In this document: piece by piece, positions 1-58,192 of the stretch | How the letters are laid out: the number at the start of each line of letters is the position of its first letter | How positions within the stretch are numbered: the first letter of the stretch is position 1 | From: Myxococcales bacterium | Lineage (GTDB): Bacteria > Myxococcota_A > Polyangia > Polyangiales > JAFGIB01 | Direction of reading: 5' to 3' | NCBI GenBank assembly: GCA_028817905.1 | Contig: JAPPOR010000171.1 | Coordinates: 1 to 58,192, forward strand | DNA length: 58,192 bases | Notes under the pieces: model-generated | What the model was told of the DNA's origin: nothing | Seen by the model: only the letters and a program-made list of their open reading frames with translations | The model's database searches: none | Program-made: the position numbers and the translations under genes

Positions 1-108
1 TCGACCCCGCAGCTCTTTCGCATCAGTCGAAAATACGGCGAGTATTCCCTCCTTTGCCGAAAGCCCTGCGAAGCCGATCACTTGCGTGAGCATCACGGGC
101 TTCGTCGT
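1..108 (-). repeat. Fold-back dispersed repeat, copy 1 (cut by window edge)
   Basis: Read on the minus strand, this stretch contains the core found again near 31,800 and 49,030: GAGGGAATAC, a five-base loop, GTATTTTCGACTGA, then GCGAAAG. About 44 of 50 core bases match the copy at 49,031-49,081. AATAC/GTATT can pair, and the arm CTTCGCAGGGCTTTCG is the inverse of the CGAAAGCCCTGCGGAG arm seen in the copy after recA. The outer end near 100-108 (GCAC...AAGCCCGTGATGCTC) is a degenerate form of the family's left terminus. The right terminus lies beyond base 1. The element begins about 15 bases after the exbD stop, in the same orientation as exbD. Confidence 0.7.
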
Positions 109-122
109 GCGGGGCGGTGGTG

Positions 123-560
123 TCAGGGGGCGCCGCCCGCCGGCGTGTCTTCGTCCGCGGCGACTGTCGCGATTGCCATCTTGGTCAGGCCGTGCCTCTG
201 GGCCAGGTCCATGACCTGGATCACCCGCCCGTGGGGTACGGCGCGGTCGCCACGGATCATGACCTCGCGGGTCGGGTCGTTTGCAGCGGCCCGCCCGAAC
301 AAGTCCGTCAGTTCGTCCCAGGAAACCGGCGTTTCTCCATGGGCGACTGTCCCGTCCGCCGCAATCGTGATCGCCAGCAGCTCCGTTGGTGCTTCGGTTT
401 CCTTTTCGATTCTGGCTTCTGGCAGGTCCACCTGCATCGATCGTTCGTGGATGAAACTGGTGGTCAGAAGAAAGAAGATCAGCAGCTGGAAGACCACGTC
501 GATGAGCGGCGTGAGCTCGATCCGGACATCGGCTTCCGGTCGTGCCGTGCGGAAGTTCAT
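123..560 (-). CDS. exbD: ExbD/TolR-family biopolymer transport protein
   Basis: This 145-residue protein has the ExbD/TolR plan: a short cytoplasmic N-terminus, one membrane helix at about residues 21-37, and a periplasmic domain. The essential Asp sits in the LTPLIDVVFQLLIFF stretch at residue 21. With ExbB it forms a proton-driven motor that energises TonB-dependent uptake or a Tol-like envelope function. No tonB or tolA is visible here, so the partner is unknown. The start overlaps the exbB stop by four bases (ATGA), which indicates translational coupling. It is the last gene of the trmH-PBP1A-exbB-exbD run. The longer open frame upstream of this ATG is the out-of-frame shadow of exbB. Confidence 0.9.
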   Translation of the reverse strand: MNFRTARPEADVRIELTPLIDVVFQLLIFFLLTTSFIHERSMQVDLPEARIEKETEAPTELLAITIAADGTVAHGETPVSWDELTDLFGRAAANDPTREVMIRGDRAVPHGRVIQVMDLAQRHGLTKMAIATVAADEDTPAGGAP

Positions 561-8134: not shown

Positions 8135-8602
8135 AGCCGTACCGAATACCACGGCATGTAGGTTGGAAGAATGCTGACCCGAACATTTCGCCTACCCGCA
8201 TGCATCACGCAGGCCGTCAGGCTCTTGCGGGGTGCTGGGGAAGGATCGGAAAAGTCGTCGGTTTCTCGCAGGAGACGACTACGACCGCGGGGTCGGACGA
8301 TCGAAGTACGCGCGTCGGTGCCAAGAATCTGCCAATGCGTGCCAACAGATGCGCCCGAGATGGGCGATGATTGTCGAGCAGAGGGTTAACGCCGCGACTC
8401 GGTTGCGCAGCCACTTGCTCACTTGCGAGCTCGGACGAGTTCATCGCAGACGGGCCAAGATGCGGGCCAAGATGCGGGCCAAGATGCGGGCCAAGATGCG
8501 GGCCAAGATGCGGGCCAAGATGCGGGCCAAGATGCGGGCCAAGATGCGGGCCAAGATGGGTCCTGGGGGCTGGCATCCTGGCCCATACGTAGCGCCGCGG
8601 CC
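8135..8602. other. Intergenic region holding a minisatellite
   Basis: About 470 bases lie between the acyl-CoA synthetase start and the end of the ECF-operon protein gene; both flanking genes are on the minus strand. The only organised structure is the 12-base tandem array described separately. Because the unit length is a multiple of three, long frames stay open through it on both strands, coding for HLGP, GQDA or MRAK repeats. None has a plausible start, ribosome site or non-repeat domain. Confidence 0.6.
8452..8558. repeat. 12-bp tandem repeat, nine copies
   Basis: The unit GGGCCAAGATGC is repeated nine times head to tail with no mismatches; only the last unit lacks its final C. Starts fall every 12 bases from 8452 to 8548. 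Such perfection implies recent slippage or expansion. It lies about 45 bases after the stop codon of the minus-strand secreted-protein gene, in its 3' region, and upstream of the acyl-CoA synthetase coding direction only in the antisense sense. Confidence 0.97.
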
Positions 8603-13088: not shown

Positions 13089-13286
13089 GTGGTCGAGTAC
13101 AAATTTGTGGAATTATCCCACGTTACGGACACCGATTTGGAGCAGGTAGTGAATCGGTGGGTCCAGGCTGGATGGCAGTTCGACGACATCCGGTTCGTCA
13201 TGACCGCCCACTCCAAGCGCCCCGCGATGGCCTTCGTGAGCTTCACGCGAGCACTGGGTCCCGAAGAGAATCCCACCTCCGACTAG
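13089..13286 (+). CDS. Small DUF4177-like protein
   Basis: This 65-residue protein, MVEYKFVELSHVTDTDLEQVVNRWVQAGWQFDDIRF..., has the pattern of DUF4177-like proteins (a short strand, a helix, GW near the middle, two strands). Its function is unknown. The GTG at 13089 has AGGAG five bases upstream; an earlier GTG at 13074 overlaps the uvrD stop and has no site. It lies 11 bases after uvrD and is probably co-transcribed with it. The name rests on overall pattern only. Confidence 0.65.
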   Translation: MVEYKFVELSHVTDTDLEQVVNRWVQAGWQFDDIRFVMTAHSKRPAMAFVSFTRALGPEENPTSD

Positions 13287-13366
13287 CTAGCCCCAATCAT
13301 TCACGGCTTTAGCGTCGAATCCCAGCGCGATCCGATGCCGAAGTCGCGAGTGATCCCGGCCGTTTT
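13287..13366 (-). repeat. Degenerate remnant of the fold-back repeat after fmdB
   Basis: Read on the minus strand from the zinc-ribbon gene's stop, this 80-base gap has GATTCGACGCTAAAGCC (like the TTCGAC...AAAGCC core) and ends GTGAATGATTGGGGCTAG. That end matches 16 of 18 bases of GTGAATGATCCGGGCTAG, the right end of the copy after recA. The orientation is again sense to the preceding gene. Confidence 0.45.
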
Positions 13367-16170: not shown

Positions 16171-18180
16171 CTACTTCCCTTCTGTGAGTGCCTTGTCGAT
16201 CGCGGTCTTGAAGGCCGGGAAGGGCTGGGCGCCCTGCAAGAGCTTGCCGTTGATGAAGAACGATGGCGTGCCGATGCGCGCGCCGGCCTTCTGGACGGCG
16301 TCCATGTCCGCCTTGACGGCTTCCTTGTGTTTCTCCTCGTCCAGCGCAGCCTTGAATTTGCCCATGTCAATGCCGCCCACCTCGCCTGCGTACTTCTCCA
16401 GGTCTGCGCGGCTCAGGGCCCGTTGGTTCTTGAACAGGATGTCGTGAAATGCCCAGAACTTCTCCGACCCACCCTGTTCGAATACCTCTTGCGCAGCCTG
16501 GGCGGCCGGGCCGGCATCCTTGTGGAAGGGTAGCGGGTAGTTGCGCCAAACGATCTTCACCTTGTCACCATACTCATCCATGACCTGCTTGATCGTGGGG
16601 TTGACGCGATTGCAGAACGGGCACTGGAAGTCCGAGAACTCCTGGATCACGACCTTCGCCTTGGCGTTCCCCTTGAACGGGGCGTTCTTCGCTTCGGCGA
16701 TCTTGTACACCTTGTTTGCGTCTGGCCGCGCGGGCGCATCCTTGCCTCCTTCGGCCTCGATGAACTGAGGCGTGGTGGAGCCCTTTGCGGTCACCGCCGC
16801 GTAGATATCTTTCTTGGCCGTGCCCTTGTCTACAAGCGCCTTGGCCTTCTTGAGCTCCTCGTCGATCACAGCCTTGAAAGCCGGCAGGGGCTGGGCGCCA
16901 CGCAGGTTGCGACCATTGATGAAGAACGCGGGGGTGCCGCTCGCGCCCAGCGAGCGGGCCAGTTTCTGATCGGCTTCGGCTTCCGCCTTGTGCTTCTCGT
17001 CCTTCAAGGCCGTCTTGAGCTTCGCCACGTTCATGCCGACATCCTTGGCGTACTTCTCGAGGTCGGCGGGTTTGAGGGCCTTCTGGTTTTCAAAAAGCTT
17101 GTCGTGGTACTCCCAAAACTTGCCCTGGTCGCGGGCTTCGAGGGCGGCCTGGGCTGCTGGCATCGCGTCTTTGTGGAAGGGCAGCGGATTGTGCTTGAAA
17201 ATGACGCGTACGTCCTTGCCGTATTCCTTGACGATGTCGGCCATTGTCGGGTTCACGCGGCTGCAGAATGGGCATTGGAAGTCGCTGAACTCGATGATCG
17301 TGATCAACGCATCGTCTGAGCCCTTTTGCGCGCTCTTGCCAACCGGAACCTTGTAGACCGCTTTGGGGTCCGGACGGCGGCGGGCTTGTTGCTTCTTGGC
17401 TTCAGGCGCCTTGGCGGCGGTGAGCCCGTTCTTGGTCAGAGCTGCGTAGAGCTTGCTCTTCTTCACACCGGACTTGATCAACTTCTCGGCGCGCTTGAGC
17501 TCGTCGTCGATCACTTCCTTGAAGCGCGGAAGCGGCTGGGCGCCCGATAGGAAACGTCCGTTGATGAAGAAGGCCGGCGTACCACGCGCGCCAAGTCGGC
17601 TGGCAACCTTCTGGTCCTCTTTGATCTTGGCCCCGTGCTTGGCTTTGTCGATCGCCTCGGCCGCCTTGGCTTCGTCGAGGCCGAGCTCCTTGGCGTACTG
17701 CTTGAGGTTGTCGGGTTTGAGGGCCTTCTGGTTCGCAAACAGCTTCTCGTGCATCGCCCAGAATTTCTTGTCGCCGCCCTGTTCGAAGGCCTCCATTGCC
17801 AGGTTGTGGGCGGGCCCGGCGTCCTTGTGAAATGGCAGTGGATTGTTGCGCCAGACGATCCGGACCTTGTCGCCGTACTCCTTCTGGATCGCCTTCAGGG
17901 TCGGCTCTACACGGCTGCAGAATGGGCACTGAAAGTCGCTGACCTCGACGATCGTGACCAATGCATCCGCGGGCCCCTTGGACGGTTGGGCCGCGGTGAC
18001 CGGCACCTTGTACCGGTCCGGGCCGTCCTTTTCTTCGACTGCCTTGACGTCTTCTTCGCCGCTATCGGCTGCCGCTGCGACCTCGGCCTCCTGCCCGCCT
18101 TTGTTGCCGGTGATGTTTCCGAGGATCAATCCGGCAAAGAATGAAAACAGAATCGCTACTAATGCTGAACCTTTACTCAT
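16171..18180 (-). CDS. Exported protein with three DsbA-like thioredoxin domains
   Basis: This 669-residue protein has an N-terminal membrane or signal segment (about residues 6-24). It is followed by three homologous DsbA/DSBA-like oxidoreductase domains of about 215 residues. Active sites are CPFC at 85-88, 303-306 and 520-523, each in SDFQCPFC, with a shared NPLPFHKDA or YPLPFHKDA segment and the cis-proline loop GTPAFFING or GTPSFFING at about 200, 415 and 638. Single-domain relatives (DsbA family, thioredoxin_4) make or isomerise disulfides in the periplasm. Start ATG at 18180 is preferred to 18204 because it gives a proper N-terminus (MSKGSALVAIL). Lys/Pro-rich linkers separate the domains. 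No DsbB-like partner is nearby. Confidence 0.9.
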   Translation of the reverse strand: MSKGSALVAILFSFFAGLILGNITGNKGGQEAEVAAAADSGEEDVKAVEEKDGPDRYKVPVTAAQPSKGPADALVTIVEVSDFQCPFCSRVEPTLKAIQKEYGDKVRIVWRNNPLPFHKDAGPAHNLAMEAFEQGGDKKFWAMHEKLFANQKALKPDNLKQYAKELGLDEAKAAEAIDKAKHGAKIKEDQKVASRLGARGTPAFFINGRFLSGAQPLPRFKEVIDDELKRAEKLIKSGVKKSKLYAALTKNGLTAAKAPEAKKQQARRRPDPKAVYKVPVGKSAQKGSDDALITIIEFSDFQCPFCSRVNPTMADIVKEYGKDVRVIFKHNPLPFHKDAMPAAQAALEARDQGKFWEYHDKLFENQKALKPADLEKYAKDVGMNVAKLKTALKDEKHKAEAEADQKLARSLGASGTPAFFINGRNLRGAQPLPAFKAVIDEELKKAKALVDKGTAKKDIYAAVTAKGSTTPQFIEAEGGKDAPARPDANKVYKIAEAKNAPFKGNAKAKVVIQEFSDFQCPFCNRVNPTIKQVMDEYGDKVKIVWRNYPLPFHKDAGPAAQAAQEVFEQGGSEKFWAFHDILFKNQRALSRADLEKYAGEVGGIDMGKFKAALDEEKHKEAVKADMDAVQKAGARIGTPSFFINGKLLQGAQPFPAFKTAIDKALTEGK

Positions 18181-22346: not shown

Positions 22347-22496
22347 CTACTTTTGGTAGACCGAAACGGCCAGTTGTCGGCGCCCCTTGCGGCGTCGGTT
22401 GTTCAACACCTTCCGACCGTTAGCAGTCTTCATGCGCGCGCGGAACCCATGTGTCCGAAGACGCCGGGTGCGATGGGGCTGGTAAGTGCGCTTCAT
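22347..22496 (-). CDS. rpmH: 50S ribosomal protein L34
   Basis: This is the standard very basic 49-residue L34, [22 protein letters not shown], continuing [23 protein letters not shown]. The start at 22496 is fixed by the conserved N-terminus; an open frame extends further upstream but is not L34. It heads the rpmH-rnpA-yidD-yidC-jag operon. In many bacteria dnaA lies upstream, but here radC does. Confidence 0.96.
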
Positions 22497-22645: not shown

Positions 22646-22674
22646 ACCAAAGCACGCTGGCCCTATCCTGTCAA
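22646..22674 (-). promoter_or_regulatory. Possible rpmH operon promoter
   Basis: On the minus strand a perfect TTGACA (22669-22674) is followed after 17 bases by TTTGGT, a poor -10 with 3 of 6 matches. It lies about 150 bases upstream of rpmH, a usual leader length for L34. The support is the -35 only. Confidence 0.35.
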
Positions 22675-22702
22675 GCCGACATCTCGGCAGCCCCTCGGGG
22701 CC

Positions 22703-22868
22703 TAACCCGCATCCATCACCAAATCACGCGAGCGGGCTGGTGTCGAATGACACGATTCCGGGGTTCGCCCGAAGGTGACCCGCGGGTATTGGTCCCCACC
22801 ATAGAAAGCCATGCAAAGTCAAGTGTTTGTAGTGCTCATCGAGCTCCTTGAGGATGAATGCGGGCGAG
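22703..22868 (-). repeat. Fold-back dispersed repeat, diverged copy 4, overlapping radC 3' end
   Basis: One end on the plus strand is CCCGCATCCATCACCAA (22706-22722), identical over 17 bases to 31,735-31,751. The other end (22848-22868) is TTGAGGATGAATGCGGGC then GAG, about 17 of 21 bases like the inverted partner. On the minus strand it starts inside the last radC codons and runs past the stop. The middle keeps only weak likeness to the core (AATACCCGCGGGT, TTCGGGCGAA). The orientation is sense to radC. Confidence 0.6.
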
Positions 22869-23561
22869 CAGGCCCTGGTCGAGAAAGCTGTAGCTTTCCT
22901 CGGCGCCGATAATGACGTGGTCGAGGATGGGCACGCCCAGCAATTCGCCGGCACGCGAAAGGCGCACGGTAACCTGGATGTCTTCCTCGCTGGGCTGGGG
23001 CTCTCCGCTTGGATGATTGTGGACGAAAATCACCCCGTGGGCCGGGAGTGAGAGGATCGGTCGAAAGACGCTGGCCGGGCTGAGCTCGCACGCGGAAAGG
23101 CCCCCAATTGCGACCGTGATTTCGGCGAGGGGCCGATTGCGCACGTCCACGGGGATCGCAACGAAATGTTCGCGTGTCTCGCGTCGTAGACGCGGGCGCA
23201 GCGCGCGGTCGACGTCTTGGCTGCTGCGGATGGGCCGACCCCGGTGCAGTGGCACACTTGCTGCCCGCATACCCAGCTCGATTGCGGCCCACAGGCGACT
23301 GGCCTTGCCCCGTCCGACGCCCACGAAGCCGGCGAGGTCCGCTTCGCCCAGCTGGGACAGTTGGTGAAGCCCTCCGGCCGTCGCCAGAATGCGCTCAGCC
23401 AGAACCTGCACCGGCTCGCCGGTCGTGCCGGTCCCCAGCAGAACGGCCAAGAGATCCGCATCGCTCAGCCGCTCCGGTCCATAGAGCCAGAGTCGCTCTC
23501 GCGGGCCGCATTGGGCAGCTAGGCTTGGTCGATCAAGGTGATGTGTCTCGCGTGTAGCCAT
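22836..23561 (-). CDS. radC: RadC-family JAMM-fold protein
   Basis: This 241-residue protein has an N-terminal helix-hairpin-helix-like part (SDADLLAVLLGTGTTGEPVQ... LAGFVGVGRGKASRLWAAIELG) and a JAB1/MPN-like domain with the metal motif VIFVHNHPSGEPQPSEEDIQ (His-x-His plus Asp). RadC is widespread; its molecular role is uncertain, despite the old name for DNA repair. The ATG at 23561 (MATRETHH) is chosen, with 23582 as an in-frame alternative; neither has a strong ribosome site. The usual C-terminus, SFLDQGLL, is followed by nine extra residues, ARIHPQGAR, encoded by the end of the fold-back repeat. Confidence 0.9.
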   Translation of the reverse strand: MATRETHHLDRPSLAAQCGPRERLWLYGPERLSDADLLAVLLGTGTTGEPVQVLAERILATAGGLHQLSQLGEADLAGFVGVGRGKASRLWAAIELGMRAASVPLHRGRPIRSSQDVDRALRPRLRRETREHFVAIPVDVRNRPLAEITVAIGGLSACELSPASVFRPILSLPAHGVIFVHNHPSGEPQPSEEDIQVTVRLSRAGELLGVPILDHVIIGAEESYSFLDQGLLARIHPQGAR

Positions 23562-23705
23562 CCTGACCACAGCCCGTTGCATGCGGCGTGCCTGGGTTCG
23601 GCGCCTGCCAATCCGCGAGCTTGCTGGTGGTGTGCCGGCGGGTTCTGGCGGCTCGCCTGGCGGTCCGCCCGCTATCGAGTCGCTGCCATCACCGGGTTCA
23701 ATCGG

Positions 23706-30302: not shown

Positions 30303-31760
30303 ATGCGCGTCCTATACATCGACATCGATACGCTGCGCCCGGACCATCTGGGATGCTACGGCTACCATCGCAACACCAGCCCGAACATCGACAGGGTTGC
30401 GCGGAATGCGGTGCGATTCACCAACTGCTATGCATCCGATACCCCGTGCCTGCCGAGCAGGATGGCGCTCCTGACGGGTCGCTTCGGAATTCACAACGGC
30501 GTCGTTGGGCACGGTGGCTCCGCGGCCGAGCTCCGGCTGGAAGGGCCGAGCCGGGGATTTTCGTCTCGTGTGGCGCGTGAGAGCCTCTTCGCTCAGGTGA
30601 GGCGCGCGGGGCTTCATACGGTGACCCTGAGTGCGTTTGCCGAGCGGCACAGCGCGTTCGCCTGGTACGCTGGCTTTAACGAGCACGCCATGGTGCCCAA
30701 GCGAGGCCTGGAGGGGGCGGATGAAGTGTGTGCGCTTGCGAGTAACTGGCTCGCCCGTTGCGGAACACGCAGCGATTGGTTTCTACACTTGCATCTGTGG
30801 GACCCCCACACGCCCTATCGCGCGCCTGAGGCGTTTGGGGAGCCGTTCGCGCAAGAGCCCGTGCCCCATTGGTTGACCGAGGAGGTGCGGGCTTCACACT
30901 ATCGTGGCTACGGCCCACACAGCGCGCGGGAGGCGGTGGGTTTCTCGACCGATTACCCCTGGGGGAACTATCCGCGTCAGCCTCGGGAGCTCCCAGATAT
31001 GGACAGTGTGCGGAGCATGTTCGACGGCTACGACACGGGCATCCGGTTCGCGGACGAGCACCTGGGGCGGCTCTTCAACCAGATGGCCGACCAGAATATC
31101 CTCGATGACGCAGTGATCATCATCACGAGTGACCACGGGGAGAACCTGGGTGAGCTCAACGTGTACTGCGACCATCACACTGCCGACCAACACACCGCCA
31201 ACGTGCCGATGATCGTCCGCTTTCCCGGCCACGGCGCGCGGGTGGATTCGGGCTTGTACTATCAGATCGACATCGCCGCGACCTTGCTGCGGTTGCTGGG
31301 AGGCAATGTTCCTGAGGGGTGGGATGCCCGGGAAAGCGCGGGGGCTTTTGCGGCGGGCGCCTCCGCCGGAAGGGATCATCTCGTGCTGTCGCAGGCGGCT
31401 TGGACGTGCCAGCGTGCCGTCCGCTTCGAGGACTATCTGTGGCTTCGAACCTACCATGATGGCTACCATGGCTATCCCGAGTCGATGCTGTTCGATCTAG
31501 TGGTCGACCCCCACGAGCAGCAGAATCTCGCGCCCCAGCAGCCGGACACGGTTCGTCGCGCGCAATCGCTGCTGGACGCGTGGCGCGCCGACATGCTGCC
31601 CGAGGGTAGCGGGCTCGAGGACCCGCTCGACGTGGTGATGCGGGAGGGCGGGCCCTTCCACGTACGCGGGCAGCTGCCCGCGTATTTGGCTCGTCTGCGA
31701 GCGACCGGTCGCGCACAGGCGGCTGAGGCGCTGGCCCGCATCCATCACCAAGGCACGTGA
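30303..31760 (+). CDS. Type I sulfatase
   Basis: This 485-residue enzyme of the alkaline phosphatase superfamily has the metal-binding start LYIDIDTLRPDHLGCYG (Asp7, Asp9) and the formylglycine motif CLPSR (Cys49-Arg53) in DTPCLPSRMALLTGR. That Cys needs oxidation by a sulfatase-maturing enzyme, which is not in the window. IIITSDHGENLGE supplies further metal ligands. It lacks a signal peptide, so it may act in the cytoplasm. The last residues, LARIHHQGT, are encoded by the terminal repeat of the fold-back element; the RadC gene ends with a similar ARIHPQGAR. A good ribosome site (GAGGGG) lies before the ATG. Confidence 0.88.
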   Translation: MRVLYIDIDTLRPDHLGCYGYHRNTSPNIDRVARNAVRFTNCYASDTPCLPSRMALLTGRFGIHNGVVGHGGSAAELRLEGPSRGFSSRVARESLFAQVRRAGLHTVTLSAFAERHSAFAWYAGFNEHAMVPKRGLEGADEVCALASNWLARCGTRSDWFLHLHLWDPHTPYRAPEAFGEPFAQEPVPHWLTEEVRASHYRGYGPHSAREAVGFSTDYPWGNYPRQPRELPDMDSVRSMFDGYDTGIRFADEHLGRLFNQMADQNILDDAVIIITSDHGENLGELNVYCDHHTADQHTANVPMIVRFPGHGARVDSGLYYQIDIAATLLRLLGGNVPEGWDARESAGAFAAGASAGRDHLVLSQAAWTCQRAVRFEDYLWLRTYHDGYHGYPESMLFDLVVDPHEQQNLAPQQPDTVRRAQSLLDAWRADMLPEGSGLEDPLDVVMREGGPFHVRGQLPAYLARLRATGRAQAAEALARIHHQGT

Positions 31761-31870
31761 TGATCGTGCAAGTGATCGATTTCGCAGGGGTTTCGGTGAG
31801 GGAAGGGAATACTCGCCGTATTCTCGACCGAGGCGAAAGCGCGCGCGAGTTGGTGATGGATGCGCGCTAG
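31731..31870 (+). repeat. Fold-back dispersed repeat, copy 2 (complete)
   Basis: The 140-base element is bounded by imperfect 21-base inverted repeats (31,731-31,751 and 31,850-31,870; 19 of 21 match), with CGCATCCATCACCAA / TTGGTGATGGATGCG perfect over 15. Inside lies the core GGGAATACTCGCCGTATT, with AATAC/GTATT able to pair, followed by CTCGACCGAGGCGAAAGC. The left end overlaps the last ten sulfatase codons and the stop. It shares family members with 1-108, 22,703-22,868 and 48,968-49,124. Confidence 0.85.
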
Positions 31871-31895
31871 CCCGCATCCATGCGAGCCACCAAAC
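31866..31895 (-). repeat. Right end of a second fold-back element, minus orientation
   Basis: On the minus strand this reads TTTGGTG, six extra bases (GCTCGC), then ATGGATGCGGGCTAG, that is the family's right terminus with an insertion. It abuts the right end of copy 2 so that the two form a near-palindrome centred on GCTAGC. It lies 27 bases after the DUF849 stop, in sense orientation to that gene. The rest of this second element is missing. Confidence 0.55.
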
Positions 31896-31922
31896 TTGAA
31901 GGCCGAGAGCGGGCGGCTGGCA

Positions 31923-32834
31923 TCACACCTGTACCGCTCGATCGCCCGGTTGCCGCGTCGGAGCCCCGAGCGCGAGAATCTCGCGAGCCTCCGCAGGTGT
32001 CGCCGGCTCGCGACCAGTCTGTATCGCGATCCTGGACAGGGCTTCCACGAGCTGGCCGTTGTCGCGGGCCCGGTCTCCATTGGGAAGGTAGAATGTGTCC
32101 TCCAGGCCCGTGCGTAGATTGCCTCCTCGTTCGGCGGCGGTACGGTGCAGGGCCCAGATGTCTTGGTGCCCAGCTCCAGTGGCGATCACCTGCCAGCGGC
32201 TTTTCGGAGGCAGTTCGTCCAACAGGAACGGCAGCAGGTCCGTTCTTGCTGGCATGCCGGATTCGACTCCCATCACGAAGGACACGTTTGGCGTGCCTTC
32301 GAACATGCCGTTTGCGAGATACATCCCGACGCTTCGCACGATCCCCAGGTCGAAGCACTCAAACTCGGGTGCGACTTCGCACTCCCGCATCACGTCGAGG
32401 AATGCTTTGACCTTGCGGACGGGGTTGTCGAACAACATGGGTGGCCACGCCCATGCGCCGTTCTTGCGGATCTTCAGGTAGTTGAGCGAGCCCGCGTTGC
32501 AGGCGGCAAGCTCGGGGCGGAAGCGGCGCAGGCATTCGACGGGTCCCGAAATGTCTTTGCCGACGATGCCGGTGCTCATGCAGATGAGCATGTCCGGCAC
32601 GCGCTGACGAACCGCCGCCAAGATGGCGCCCACTTCCCCCGGGTCCCACGTGGGAAGGGCCCCCGACCCGGGCTGCTGGGAGCGAAAGTGCGTATGTAGC
32701 ACACTCGCCCCTTGGTCGCGGGCCTGTTGAGCCGCGTCGGCCATCTCCTGTGGCGTTACTGGCACGTTGAACCGCGCCGGGTCGGTGAGCACGCCGGTCA
32801 GGGCGCAGGTGATGACGACCTTGTCGCTGGTCAT
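31923..32834 (-). CDS. Beta-keto acid cleavage enzyme (BKACE, DUF849)
   Basis: This 303-residue TIM-barrel enzyme of the Kce/DUF849 family begins with TSDKVVITCALTGVLTDPARFNVPVTPQEMADAA. The zinc ligands HTHF (His47, His49) lie in GASVLHTHFRS. NAGSLNYLKI and SFVMGVESGMPA are family loops. Members condense a beta-keto acid with acetyl-CoA to give a CoA thioester and acetoacetate; the prototype acts on 3-keto-5-aminohexanoate in lysine fermentation. The substrate here is unknown. It is the third gene of the bicupin-ligase-BKACE operon under the TetR-type regulator. The start ATG at 32834 is fixed by the family N-terminus. Confidence 0.9.
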   Translation of the reverse strand: MTSDKVVITCALTGVLTDPARFNVPVTPQEMADAAQQARDQGASVLHTHFRSQQPGSGALPTWDPGEVGAILAAVRQRVPDMLICMSTGIVGKDISGPVECLRRFRPELAACNAGSLNYLKIRKNGAWAWPPMLFDNPVRKVKAFLDVMRECEVAPEFECFDLGIVRSVGMYLANGMFEGTPNVSFVMGVESGMPARTDLLPFLLDELPPKSRWQVIATGAGHQDIWALHRTAAERGGNLRTGLEDTFYLPNGDRARDNGQLVEALSRIAIQTGREPATPAEAREILALGAPTRQPGDRAVQV

Positions 32835-47785: not shown

Positions 47786-48961
47786 ATGGCGACCGACAGC
47801 AACCGTGAAAAAGCCCTCGATTTGGCGCTTAGTGCGATTGAAAAGTCGTACGGGAAAGGTGCCATCATGCGGCTCGGCTCGCGTGAGGCAGCGTCGATTC
47901 CGGTCACGCCGAGCGGCGCGATTTCACTTGATCTGGCGCTCGGTATCGGTGGCTATCCAAGGGGCCGCATTGTCGAGATTTACGGTCCCGAGTCGAGTGG
48001 CAAGACGACACTGACGTTGCATGCGATTGCCGAGTGCCAGCGCGCAGGCGGCGTGGCGGCATTTATCGATGCTGAGCATGCCCTCGATCCGACCTATGCA
48101 CGCAAGCTTGGGGTCAACATCGATGAGTTGCTCGTGTCGCAACCGGATTTTGGTGAACAGGCTCTCGAGATTGCCGATACGCTGGTTCGATCCGGAGCGG
48201 TCGATCTGATCATCGTGGACTCGGTGGCTGCGCTCGTTCCCAAGGCCGAAATCGAAGGCGAGATGGGTGATAGTCACGTCGGTTTGCAGGCACGTCTGAT
48301 GAGCCAGGCGCTGCGCAAGCTTACGGCATCGGTTCACAAGTCCAATACCACTCTGTTTTTCATCAACCAGATCCGTATGAAGATCGGAGTGATGTTTGGA
48401 TCGCCAGAAACGACCACGGGTGGCAATGCGTTGAAGTTCTATTCGAGTGTGCGTCTAGATGTGCGCCGGATCGGCGCTATCAAGGTTGGCGATCAAGCGA
48501 TCGGCAACCGTACGCGAGTCAAGGTTGTAAAGAACAAGATGGCGCCTCCCTTTAAGAGTTGCGAGTTTGATATTTTGTTCGGAGAGGGCATAAGTCGCAC
48601 CGGGGATGTGCTCGATTTGGCAGTTGAGGCAAACGTCGTCGACAAGTCCGGTGCCTGGTATTCCTATGCAAGCGATCGCATCGGGCAAGGGCGTGAAAAT
48701 GCGCGAGCGTATCTGAAGGAAAACGCCTCGGTTCTCGCGAAGATCGAGGGCAAGGTGTTGGCGAAGCACGGTTTGGCACGCCGGGGCGACGATGAGCAGG
48801 AGCCTGCCCAGGCCGCGGACGCGACCAAGGTCTCGGCGGGGGCCGGCAAGGTGGCAGGCAGCGGCAGCAAGGCGGATGACAAGCGATCCGGTGGCAAGGC
48901 GGCGCCGAACGGCACGCAGCAGGCGGCAACCAAATCACGAGGCAGTCGCGCACGCGCGTGA
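47786..48961 (+). CDS. recA: Recombinase RecA
   Basis: This 391-residue RecA forms filaments on single-stranded DNA for strand exchange and SOS induction. Walker A is GPESSGKT (67-74). Other motifs are [40 protein letters not shown] (Walker B) and [37 protein letters not shown] (L2/MAW). After the core (about residue 335) there is a long low-complexity tail that ends basic (KSRGSRARA), unlike the acidic tail of E. coli RecA. AGGAG lies before the ATG. It is likely transcribed with cinA. Confidence 0.97.
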
Positions 48962-48967
48962 TGCCGC

Positions 48968-49124
48968 GCCGCCACTCATCAAAGCGCGTGATGCTCGAGG
49001 AGTGATCGGCTTTCCGGGAGTTCGATGAAGGAGGGAATACTTGCTGTATTTTCGACTGAAGCGAAAGCCCTGCGGAGTCGAACCGTTGTGTGAGGGCGCG
49101 GGTTGGTGAATGATCCGGGCTAGG
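48968..49124 (+). repeat. Fold-back dispersed repeat, copy 3, after recA
   Basis: The core is GAGGGAATACTTGCTGTATT, followed by TTCGACTGAAGCGAAAGC and CTGCGGAGTCG (49,031-49,080), close to copies 1 and 2. The left end is degenerate (CCACTCATCAAAGCGCGTGATGCTC). The right end is GGTTGGTGAATGATCCGGGCTAG, cited here only as a position (49,101-49,123). The right end contains the start codon of the next gene (49,110). The orientation is sense to recA, starting within 15 bases of its stop. Confidence 0.75.
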
Positions 49125-50792: not shown

Positions 50793-51467
50793 ATGGACGG
50801 CTTGGATAGCCTCAGATGGGACGACCACGGCCTCGTCACAGTGGTGGTCCAGGACCGCTTGACGGGCGAGGTACGCATGCTGGCGCACGCCAACCGAGCG
50901 GCGGTCGAAGCGACGCTCGCGAGCGGTCAGGCCCATTTCTACAGCCGCTCGCGGCGTTCATTGTGGCGCAAGGGAGAAACCAGCGGGAACACGATCGCGG
51001 TATCTTCGCTTTGGGCGGACTGCGATGGCGACGCGCTGATCTATCTATCCGAACCTGCCGGGCCCTCCTGCCATACCGGTCGCACGACGTGCTTCTTTCG
51101 GAGAGTTGCCGCCGATGGTCAGGCCGTCGATGAGGACCCAGGTCATGCGCGCGCGCTGTTCCCGCACCTGTGGAGTGAGTTGGTTGCCCGCAAGGCGGCC
51201 GAGCATACCCGCAGCTATACGCGCACGCTGCTGGACAGTGGCCCCGCACGCCTTGGCGACAAGGTCAGGGAGGAGGCGGGCGAGTTCGACCAGGCGATCC
51301 GGGCAGAGTCATCTGAACGGGTTGTGTCCGAAGCTGCCGACGTTATCTACCACTTGCTGGTCGGTCTGCTGAGCCGGGAAGTTGACCTGCGCGCGGTCCA
51401 GGGGGAGCTAGCCCGCCGCTTTGGCGTTTCCGGTCTCGTGGAAAAAGCTAGCCGCAAGCCAGTCTAG
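50793..51467 (+). CDS. hisI: Bifunctional phosphoribosyl-AMP cyclohydrolase / phosphoribosyl-ATP pyrophosphatase
   Basis: This 224-residue histidine-pathway enzyme fuses HisI and HisE. The HisI half (to about 115) has VVVQDRLTGEVRMLAHANRAAV, SRSRRSLWRKGETSGNT and WADCDGDALIY with the metal-binding Asp/Cys set, and CHTGRTTCFF. The HisE half (about 125-215) has the MazG-like helices RSYTRTLLDSGPARLGDKVREEAGEFDQAI and SEAADVIYHLLVGL with Glu/Asp metal ligands. The two catalyse steps 2 and 3 of histidine synthesis. No other his genes are near. Its stop TAG is directly followed by the stop of the convergent regulator (CTAGCTAG), leaving no gap. Confidence 0.95.
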   Translation: MDGLDSLRWDDHGLVTVVVQDRLTGEVRMLAHANRAAVEATLASGQAHFYSRSRRSLWRKGETSGNTIAVSSLWADCDGDALIYLSEPAGPSCHTGRTTCFFRRVAADGQAVDEDPGHARALFPHLWSELVARKAAEHTRSYTRTLLDSGPARLGDKVREEAGEFDQAIRAESSERVVSEAADVIYHLLVGLLSREVDLRAVQGELARRFGVSGLVEKASRKPV

Positions 51468-52040
51468 CTAGCGTACTGTGCCCATCAGGGCTTCGAGAGT
51501 GTCCACGAGGCGCTGTGGGTCGGGACGGCGGACAAACGCCGAGGCGCCTGCATCCAGGGCGCGCTGCGACGCGTGCTCCTGCTGCGAGTACACGACGATG
51601 CGAACGTGGCGTGTCGCTTCCATCGATTGAAGGCGCTCGATGCAGCTCATGCCGTCCAGCTTCTCCCCGGTCAGGTCGAGTACGACCACGTCTGGCGTAT
51701 CGCGGCCCACCGCGATCAGCGCATCCACTGGTTCGGAGAAACTGGTTACCTCGAAGCGATCGCCCAAGGCTCCTTCCAGCTCGGCAATGCCATCGCGGTT
51801 TTCGTCGATGAGATGCACCGAAGGTTTCCCCTGCCGCAACACCTCGGGCACCGGGTAGCCATACTTGCGCAGGAAGTCCAGAACATCTACGCGCCGAAAG
51901 CGAAGGTGACGACCGGGCGTGCGGAAATGCCGGATCTCGCCGCGGTCCGCCCAGTTGTGGATCGTCTTAAGATCCACCTGGCAGAAGCGCGCCACTTCCG
52001 AGGCGGTGAACAGTTCCTTCGCTTCTCCGCGTTTTGCCAT
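51468..52040 (-). CDS. Excisionase-type HTH fused to a receiver domain
   Basis: This 190-residue protein starts with a MerR/excisionase-like helix-turn-helix (residues 10-61, ELFTASEVARFCQVDLKTIHNWADRGEIRHFRTPGRHLRFRRVDVLDFLRKYG). A receiver-like domain follows (74-190) with the acidic pair Asp79/Glu80, the phospho-acceptor position Asp122 in DVVVLDLTGEKLDG, Ser152, and Arg172 where phosphorylated receivers have Lys. DNA binding before the receiver is the reverse of most response regulators. No kinase is nearby. It could respond to phosphate weakly or work without it. Its stop abuts that of hisIE. Confidence 0.82.
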   Translation of the reverse strand: MAKRGEAKELFTASEVARFCQVDLKTIHNWADRGEIRHFRTPGRHLRFRRVDVLDFLRKYGYPVPEVLRQGKPSVHLIDENRDGIAELEGALGDRFEVTSFSEPVDALIAVGRDTPDVVVLDLTGEKLDGMSCIERLQSMEATRHVRIVVYSQQEHASQRALDAGASAFVRRPDPQRLVDTLEALMGTVR

Positions 52041-58136: not shown

Positions 58137-58145
58137 CGAGCGACC

Positions 58146-58192
58146 TTGAGTCAGCGTTTCGTGGGCGTTTGCGTCAAGTTTGATCGCGTTGC
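58146..58192 (+). CDS. Possible start of next gene (partial)
   Basis: A TTG at 58146 opens MSQRFVGVCVKFDRV, cut by the window end. The phrase GVCVKFDRV recalls the first strand of cold-shock-like domains (GxVKxF), but 15 residues are too few to decide. There is no good ribosome site. Confidence 0.2.
   Translation, partial: MSQRFVGVCVKFDRV

Follow-up and report, generated by a model that had tools for sequence, protein, structure and literature searches.

The formation of protein C-termini by MITEs is already known from other bacteria. In Coxiella burnetii, the elements QMITE1 and QMITE2 lie at gene 3' ends and supply either the STOP only, as for ubiB and kdgK in its Table 2, or a short tail and the STOP, as for pntAA (AQTHRRQLKGAR-STOP) (PMC5896051). 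In enterobacteria, RU-1, RU-2 and RU-3 have been described as small palindromic mobile repeats fused to the 3' ends of genes, where the old stop is removed and residues are added, for example in the ECA3499 amidase (PMC2759123). The radC and sulfatase genes described here correspond to this QMITE or RU-1 type of gene-end fusion, a likeness in mode of action that is drawn from the published descriptions. Differences are also evident. The QMITEs are a different element in a different host, and the accessible part of that source reports no CTAG border rebuilding TAG, no phase count and no scar analysis (PMC5896051), while the RU elements duplicate a TA target, not CTAG, and have long open frames that are read through (PMC2759123). 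In the open-access literature, no CTAG rule of this kind (a border rebuilding TAG), phase count or scars were found.

The window (the whole stretch of DNA analysed, 58,192 nucleotides) holds several copies of a short repeat, one of which ends radC and another a sulfatase gene. The explanation favoured here, with a probability of roughly 0.8 for all its parts taken jointly, is that this repeat is a non-autonomous transposable element (MITE) which inserts at CTAG. The features concerned are as follows.

1..123, minus strand: fourth MITE copy, cut by the contig start (92.6 bits)
13283..13290, plus strand: CTAGCTAG octamer holding the TAG stop of the ORF 13092-13286 (plus strand)
22347..22496, minus strand: rpmH, ribosomal protein L34, following radC downstream, a gene order conserved in many relatives
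22669..22674, minus strand: TTGACA of the putative rpmH promoter
22702..22868, minus strand: decayed full-length MITE copy between radC and rpmH, its A end running down from 22868
22836..22868, minus strand: RadC codons LARIHPQGAR and TGA stop, read from the element A end, phase 0
22836..23582, minus strand: radC, RadC-like JAB domain protein (PF04002, 2.2e-35; NF000642 above cut-off)
30303..31760, plus strand: sulfatase-family protein (PF00884, 9.4e-42)
31731..31760, plus strand: sulfatase codons LARIHHQGT and TGA stop, read from the element A end, phase 0
31731..31870, plus strand: internally shortened 140-bp MITE copy after the sulfatase (113.6-114.6 bits)
47786-48961: recA, its stop next to the third MITE copy
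48955..49123, plus strand: third MITE copy with a decayed left end, adjoining the recA stop codon (115.7 bits)
51464..51471, plus strand: CTAGCTAG octamer common to two convergent genes, with plus- and minus-strand TAG stops side by side; probable excision scar

A short palindromic repeat with CTAG borders

A full copy of the repeat is about 166 bp long and forms an imperfect palindrome with CTAG at both borders. The inverted ends of this 166-bp element are CTAGCCCGCATCCATCACCAA, the ends reading CTAGCCCG[C/G]AT..., and the two arms differ internally (A end ...CCAAGGCACGTGATG, B end ...CCAAATCACGCGCCC). This is the shape of a MITE, taken here as a repeat of less than about 600 bp with inverted terminal repeats and without a transposase gene. 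A unit of 166 bp with CTAG borders does not fit REP/BIME sequences, whose palindromic units are of 20-40 bp and mostly extragenic, and an Rfam search returned no match.

Several hundred copies occur in the genome to which the window belongs (G000; 11.1 Mb, 1110 contigs, 95.6% complete), a number in keeping with a MITE. The end pattern AGCCCGSATYMWTCACCAA, with up to two mismatches, has 792 matches there against one for the reversed control, and a profile search of a sample of 1.26 Mb (11% of the genome: the window together with L100-L219, partly chosen for holding copies) yielded 100 copies. In 56 relatives, end matches number 0-24 each, with 24 in G015, 17 in G004 (same family), 13 in G054 and 0-5 in the others. 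Within the window, the pattern GCCCGCATNCATNNNCAA, again with up to two mismatches, occurs five times against 0.58 expected. Where copies adjoin, they have one CTAG in common. The third copy has a decayed left border, and recA therefore ends in TGA at the element edge.

Other repeats have also been observed in the window. The sulfatase copy is directly followed by a further repeat end (CTAGCCCGCATCCATGCGAGCC..., 31867-31925), with a CTAG common to both, and a similar sequence follows a MITE copy in L115. At 16185-17846, three homologous stretches in tandem, spaced by about 650 bp and 70-75% alike, are probably tandem paralogous genes, and a 12-base tandem repeat, CGGGCCAAGATG, of about nine copies and with a period that is a multiple of three, lies at 8439-8570.

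The C-termini of RadC and of the sulfatase

RadC (PF04002) and the sulfatase (PF00884) are unrelated genes, and both end within copies matched by the profile. The sulfatase closes with AEALARIHHQGT, ending in ALARIHHQGT, where the last nine residues and the TGA are the A end of the 140-bp copy, detected by nhmmer at 31731-31870 (plus strand) with 113.6 bits, or 114.6 bits with the larger sample. The closest relatives have nearly the same length and a whole-protein identity of 60-61%; past a shared ...RATGRA, they end in RLLQRHGR (G004) and RLIARHGYEK (G001). This comparison, made at a protein identity of only about 60% even within the family, indicates that the sulfatase tail was replaced, not just added.

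The RadC ORF (minus strand) closes with SFLDQGLLARIHPQGAR, ending in LARIHPQGAR. A profile made from other copies of the genome matched the radC copy at 22702-22867 (minus strand) over model positions 2-166 (39.9 bits, E 1.8e-10); the larger-sample profile gave 39.6 bits. The global alignment score of this copy is 85, against a null of -8.4 +/- 10.6 with a maximum of 29 (392 other windows of the same sequence), while with the ends removed the interior reaches 23 against a null of -8.3 +/- 9.7 whose maximum is also 23. These values point to an old copy that spans the whole element.

Behind both tails, the DNA reads GCCCGCATYCATCMYCAAGG. As the first-pass annotation had proposed, both tails derive from the same (A) end of one fold-back element, in an identical phase (CTN GCC CGC AT...). 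Its suggestion that the element entered the last codons and supplied a new stop is likewise borne out: both tails and their stops are element DNA, relatives without the element end differently, and in alignments with such relatives no RadC or sulfatase ends in ARIHxQG, nor was an ARIHxQG-like RadC tail seen in any of the relatives read. The accompanying view that RadC normally ends at GLL proved too strong for this order, in which the residues after G[LM] vary freely among relatives (LNTDPGVL, LRPDTDLSAP, LAPTR, LGDEAPRTDEGARAMA...) and tails run to about 1-17 residues. Because of this variability, the nine extra residues are not unusual and the evidence lies in the DNA and not in the length; the RadC tail is element DNA, of a length normal for RadC in this order.

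The radC copy occupies the gap between this gene and the rpmH promoter. From the radC stop to CTTGAC the distance is 163 bases here and -2 to about 80 in many relatives; in some, it is 130-190 or more without any element. A TTGACT just past radC was considered as the rpmH promoter and dropped, since CTTGACAGG at 22669-22675 matches the relatives better. The exact empty site at radC is not readable in frame, the copy being old and small indels likely.

Two other accounts of these tails have been considered. The RadC tail could be an ordinary one in which GCCCGCAT encodes ARI, a common tripeptide, and resembles the repeat by chance, only the sulfatase tail being derived from the element; the relatives' tails are indeed variable, and LARI is also found inside unrelated genes here without any element. 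Nevertheless, the alignment covers all 166 bp, the interior as well as the correctly spaced ends, and the rpmH promoter is further away by about the length of one element, all of which makes a chance likeness very improbable. There is as little to recommend the idea that the genes took their stop from the element through deletion or truncation after losing their own 3' ends: the last residues of both proteins did change, but the sulfatase is as long as in its relatives and most phase-2 genes (see below) with known relatives differ from these by no more than a few residues in where they end.

Reading phase, CTAG occupancy and the stop codon

Using a home-made dicodon coding model trained on long ORFs, each complete element end was tested for an incoming coding frame. 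In the 1.26-Mb sample, such a frame enters 26 ends, of which 24 are in phase 2 (xxC TAG), two in phase 0 (CTA GCC) and none in phase 1, an excess of phase 2 with a binomial p of 5e-10 against one third. In phase 2, the gene stops at the TAG within the terminal CTAG and the protein is unchanged, while the tail-making phase 0 is represented among these 26 ends by radC and the sulfatase only. The earlier reading of the insertions as makers of new tails is thus right for these two genes and incomplete as a general account, tails being the minority and 24 of the 26 gene-facing ends adding no residue. In a separate gene call, 56 element edges have the end of a gene no more than 400 bp away on the same side, and for 25 of them the stop lies exactly at the element TAG. 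Translation of the consensus from its two ends in three phases explains both the phase-2 stop and the short tail: two readings stop immediately (TAG), phase 0 of the A end yields LARIHHQGT and a stop, and the remaining three run for about 50 codons. For related elements in relatives, seven of eight coding-entered ends are in phase 2 and one is in phase 0 (ending LTRIIHE, in G001).

Genes with a phase-2 end mostly keep the length of their relatives. One such protein ends in ...WKSYR in both G000 and G014, an acyl-CoA dehydrogenase with the element at its stop ends in ...ARTILG compared to ...ARSIVS and ...ARELLA in relatives, and the best-aligned genes end within 0-3 residues of theirs. For a few, among them ribonuclease HII, the difference is about ten residues; the region in question also varies from one relative to the next.

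The use of CTAG sites has been assessed from counts in the sample, where the sites outside elements comprise 157 at the stops of genes, 805 within genes and 401 in the remaining DNA. A loose degenerate element-end pattern gave many false intragenic ends, and its edge classes and Fisher test were discarded while the CTAG counts were kept. The occupied and free sites number 25/157 at stops, about 73/401 in intergenic DNA and 2/805 inside genes. Occupancy at stops is therefore like that of intergenic sites (25/182 vs about 73/474, p 0.63) and is depleted inside genes (p 2.5e-17), in keeping with insertion at any CTAG followed by selection against damage.

It may still be asked whether the element seeks stop codons or gene ends specifically, perhaps with a regulatory, terminator-like role. 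That 24 of 26 coding-entered ends lie at a stop would suit such targeting, as would the strong hairpin directly past the stop, the sulfatase copy folding to a long hairpin of -69.7 kcal/mol (z -5.7). The near-equal occupancy of stop and intergenic CTAG is, however, what CTAG targeting with purifying selection predicts, and a preference for stops as such is considered unlikely. Under CTAG targeting and selection, an insertion at an in-frame xxC-TAG stop would remake CTAG at each border and leave the protein unaltered, and since CTAG is rebuilt the stop codon would be a neutral site. Insertions elsewhere within genes would be purged, and radC and the sulfatase would represent the tolerated case of a short tail, having been struck a few codons ahead of their former stops.

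Possible target duplication, octamers and a candidate transposase

CTAG flanks both sides of most copies and, as it is palindromic, direct repeats are hidden. Borders other than CTAG include two identical pairs (TTAG/TTAG and CTCG/CTCG), but also TTAG/CTAA. The octamer CTAGCTAG occurs 447 times in G000, 22 times in G004 and 0-18 times in 55 other relatives, the reversed control being ordinary. In the sample it was found 55 times against 1.8 expected from CTAG frequency, the top ratio among the tetramers tested; its sub-words carry the same signal, so a maximal-order Markov test adds nothing. Pairs of CTAG with one to three extra bases between them are not enriched, and 30 of 47 separate CTAGCTAG runs hold a gene stop codon. 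Neither CTATAG (37 vs 41.8 expected) nor the 3-base versions are enriched, which would suit a 4-bp target duplication on insertion. These counts suggest that the octamers are probably excision scars, left when a copy is lost.

Outside recognised copies, CTAG stops account for 171 of the 856 stops here, compared with 31 of 383 in the fetched stretches of relatives (p 5e-8), and further CTAG-ended repeats, e.g. CTAGCGACCTTGAGTCA, are also present at stops. A second, unrelated CTAG-ended family (CTAGCGACCTTGAGTCAGCGTTTCGTGGACG...) has been seen to start exactly at TAG stops in L110, L125, L143, L160, L177 and L217, and at 58137-58153 of the window. A short palindromic repeat, CTAGGCTGAAACTTCCCTTCGGGAAGCT, also lies at CTAG sites, some of them at gene stops (L109, L133, L143, L196). 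A wider proposal, on which the balance is about even, is that several unrelated CTAG-ended MITE families use the TAG stop as a self-healing landing site, where insertion rebuilds the stop and excision leaves CTAGCTAG and keeps it, and that they may have shifted hundreds of genes to CTAG stops (20% here vs about 8% in relatives) with hairpins or scars right behind.

With regard to mobilisation, IS1380 has served as prokaryotic outgroup to the piggyBac elements, which duplicate four bases of target, mostly TTAA (PMC10813416); for IS1247, a DR of 5 bp is given (PMC3281130). IS1380 elements carry a transposase, whereas the MITE has none and its target here is CTAG. No IS1380 transposase (PF13701) was found in G000, at 95.6% completeness. 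In G077, a full IS1380-type transposase ORF (592-2010 in L280) lies between inverted CCCGGATAATTC repeats at about 446 and 2083, and its ends, CCCGGATAATTCAC, are alike to the MITE variant CCCGGATCATTCACCAA over about 14 bases. G015 has an IS1380-type gene with the end CTAA-CCCGGAAAATTCACG and an end CTAACCCGGAAAATTCACG. In the same genome, a related MITE family with its own CTAGCCCGCATCGGTCACCAA repeats and ends CTAGCCCGCATCGGTCACCA(A/G) has been observed (59 end matches), together with the IS1380-type transposase gene. The terminal repeats of the MITE are thus IS1380-like, though over about 14 bases only, and because the match is this short IS1380 is offered as a best guess and not as a finding; on this likeness, mobilisation by an IS1380-type transposase is likely. 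IS630 reportedly inserts at TA within CTAG, a target common to the MITE described here. It would, however, duplicate TA only, while in G000 CTATAG is not enriched and no IS630-type DDE_3 transposase (PF13358) was found.

Taken together, these observations would provide a countable rule for how an element can reach a copy number in the hundreds in a genome densely packed with genes: its target is rare inside genes, frequent at stop codons and re-made by insertion. The protein would be changed when the insertion falls in the CTA-G phase near a gene end, at the element end with an early TGA. The octamer CTAGCTAG is offered as a countable marker of past excision in any genome. For annotation, this indicates that C-termini of the LARIHxQG type followed by a stop are transposon-derived in this lineage and should not be taken as conserved motifs.
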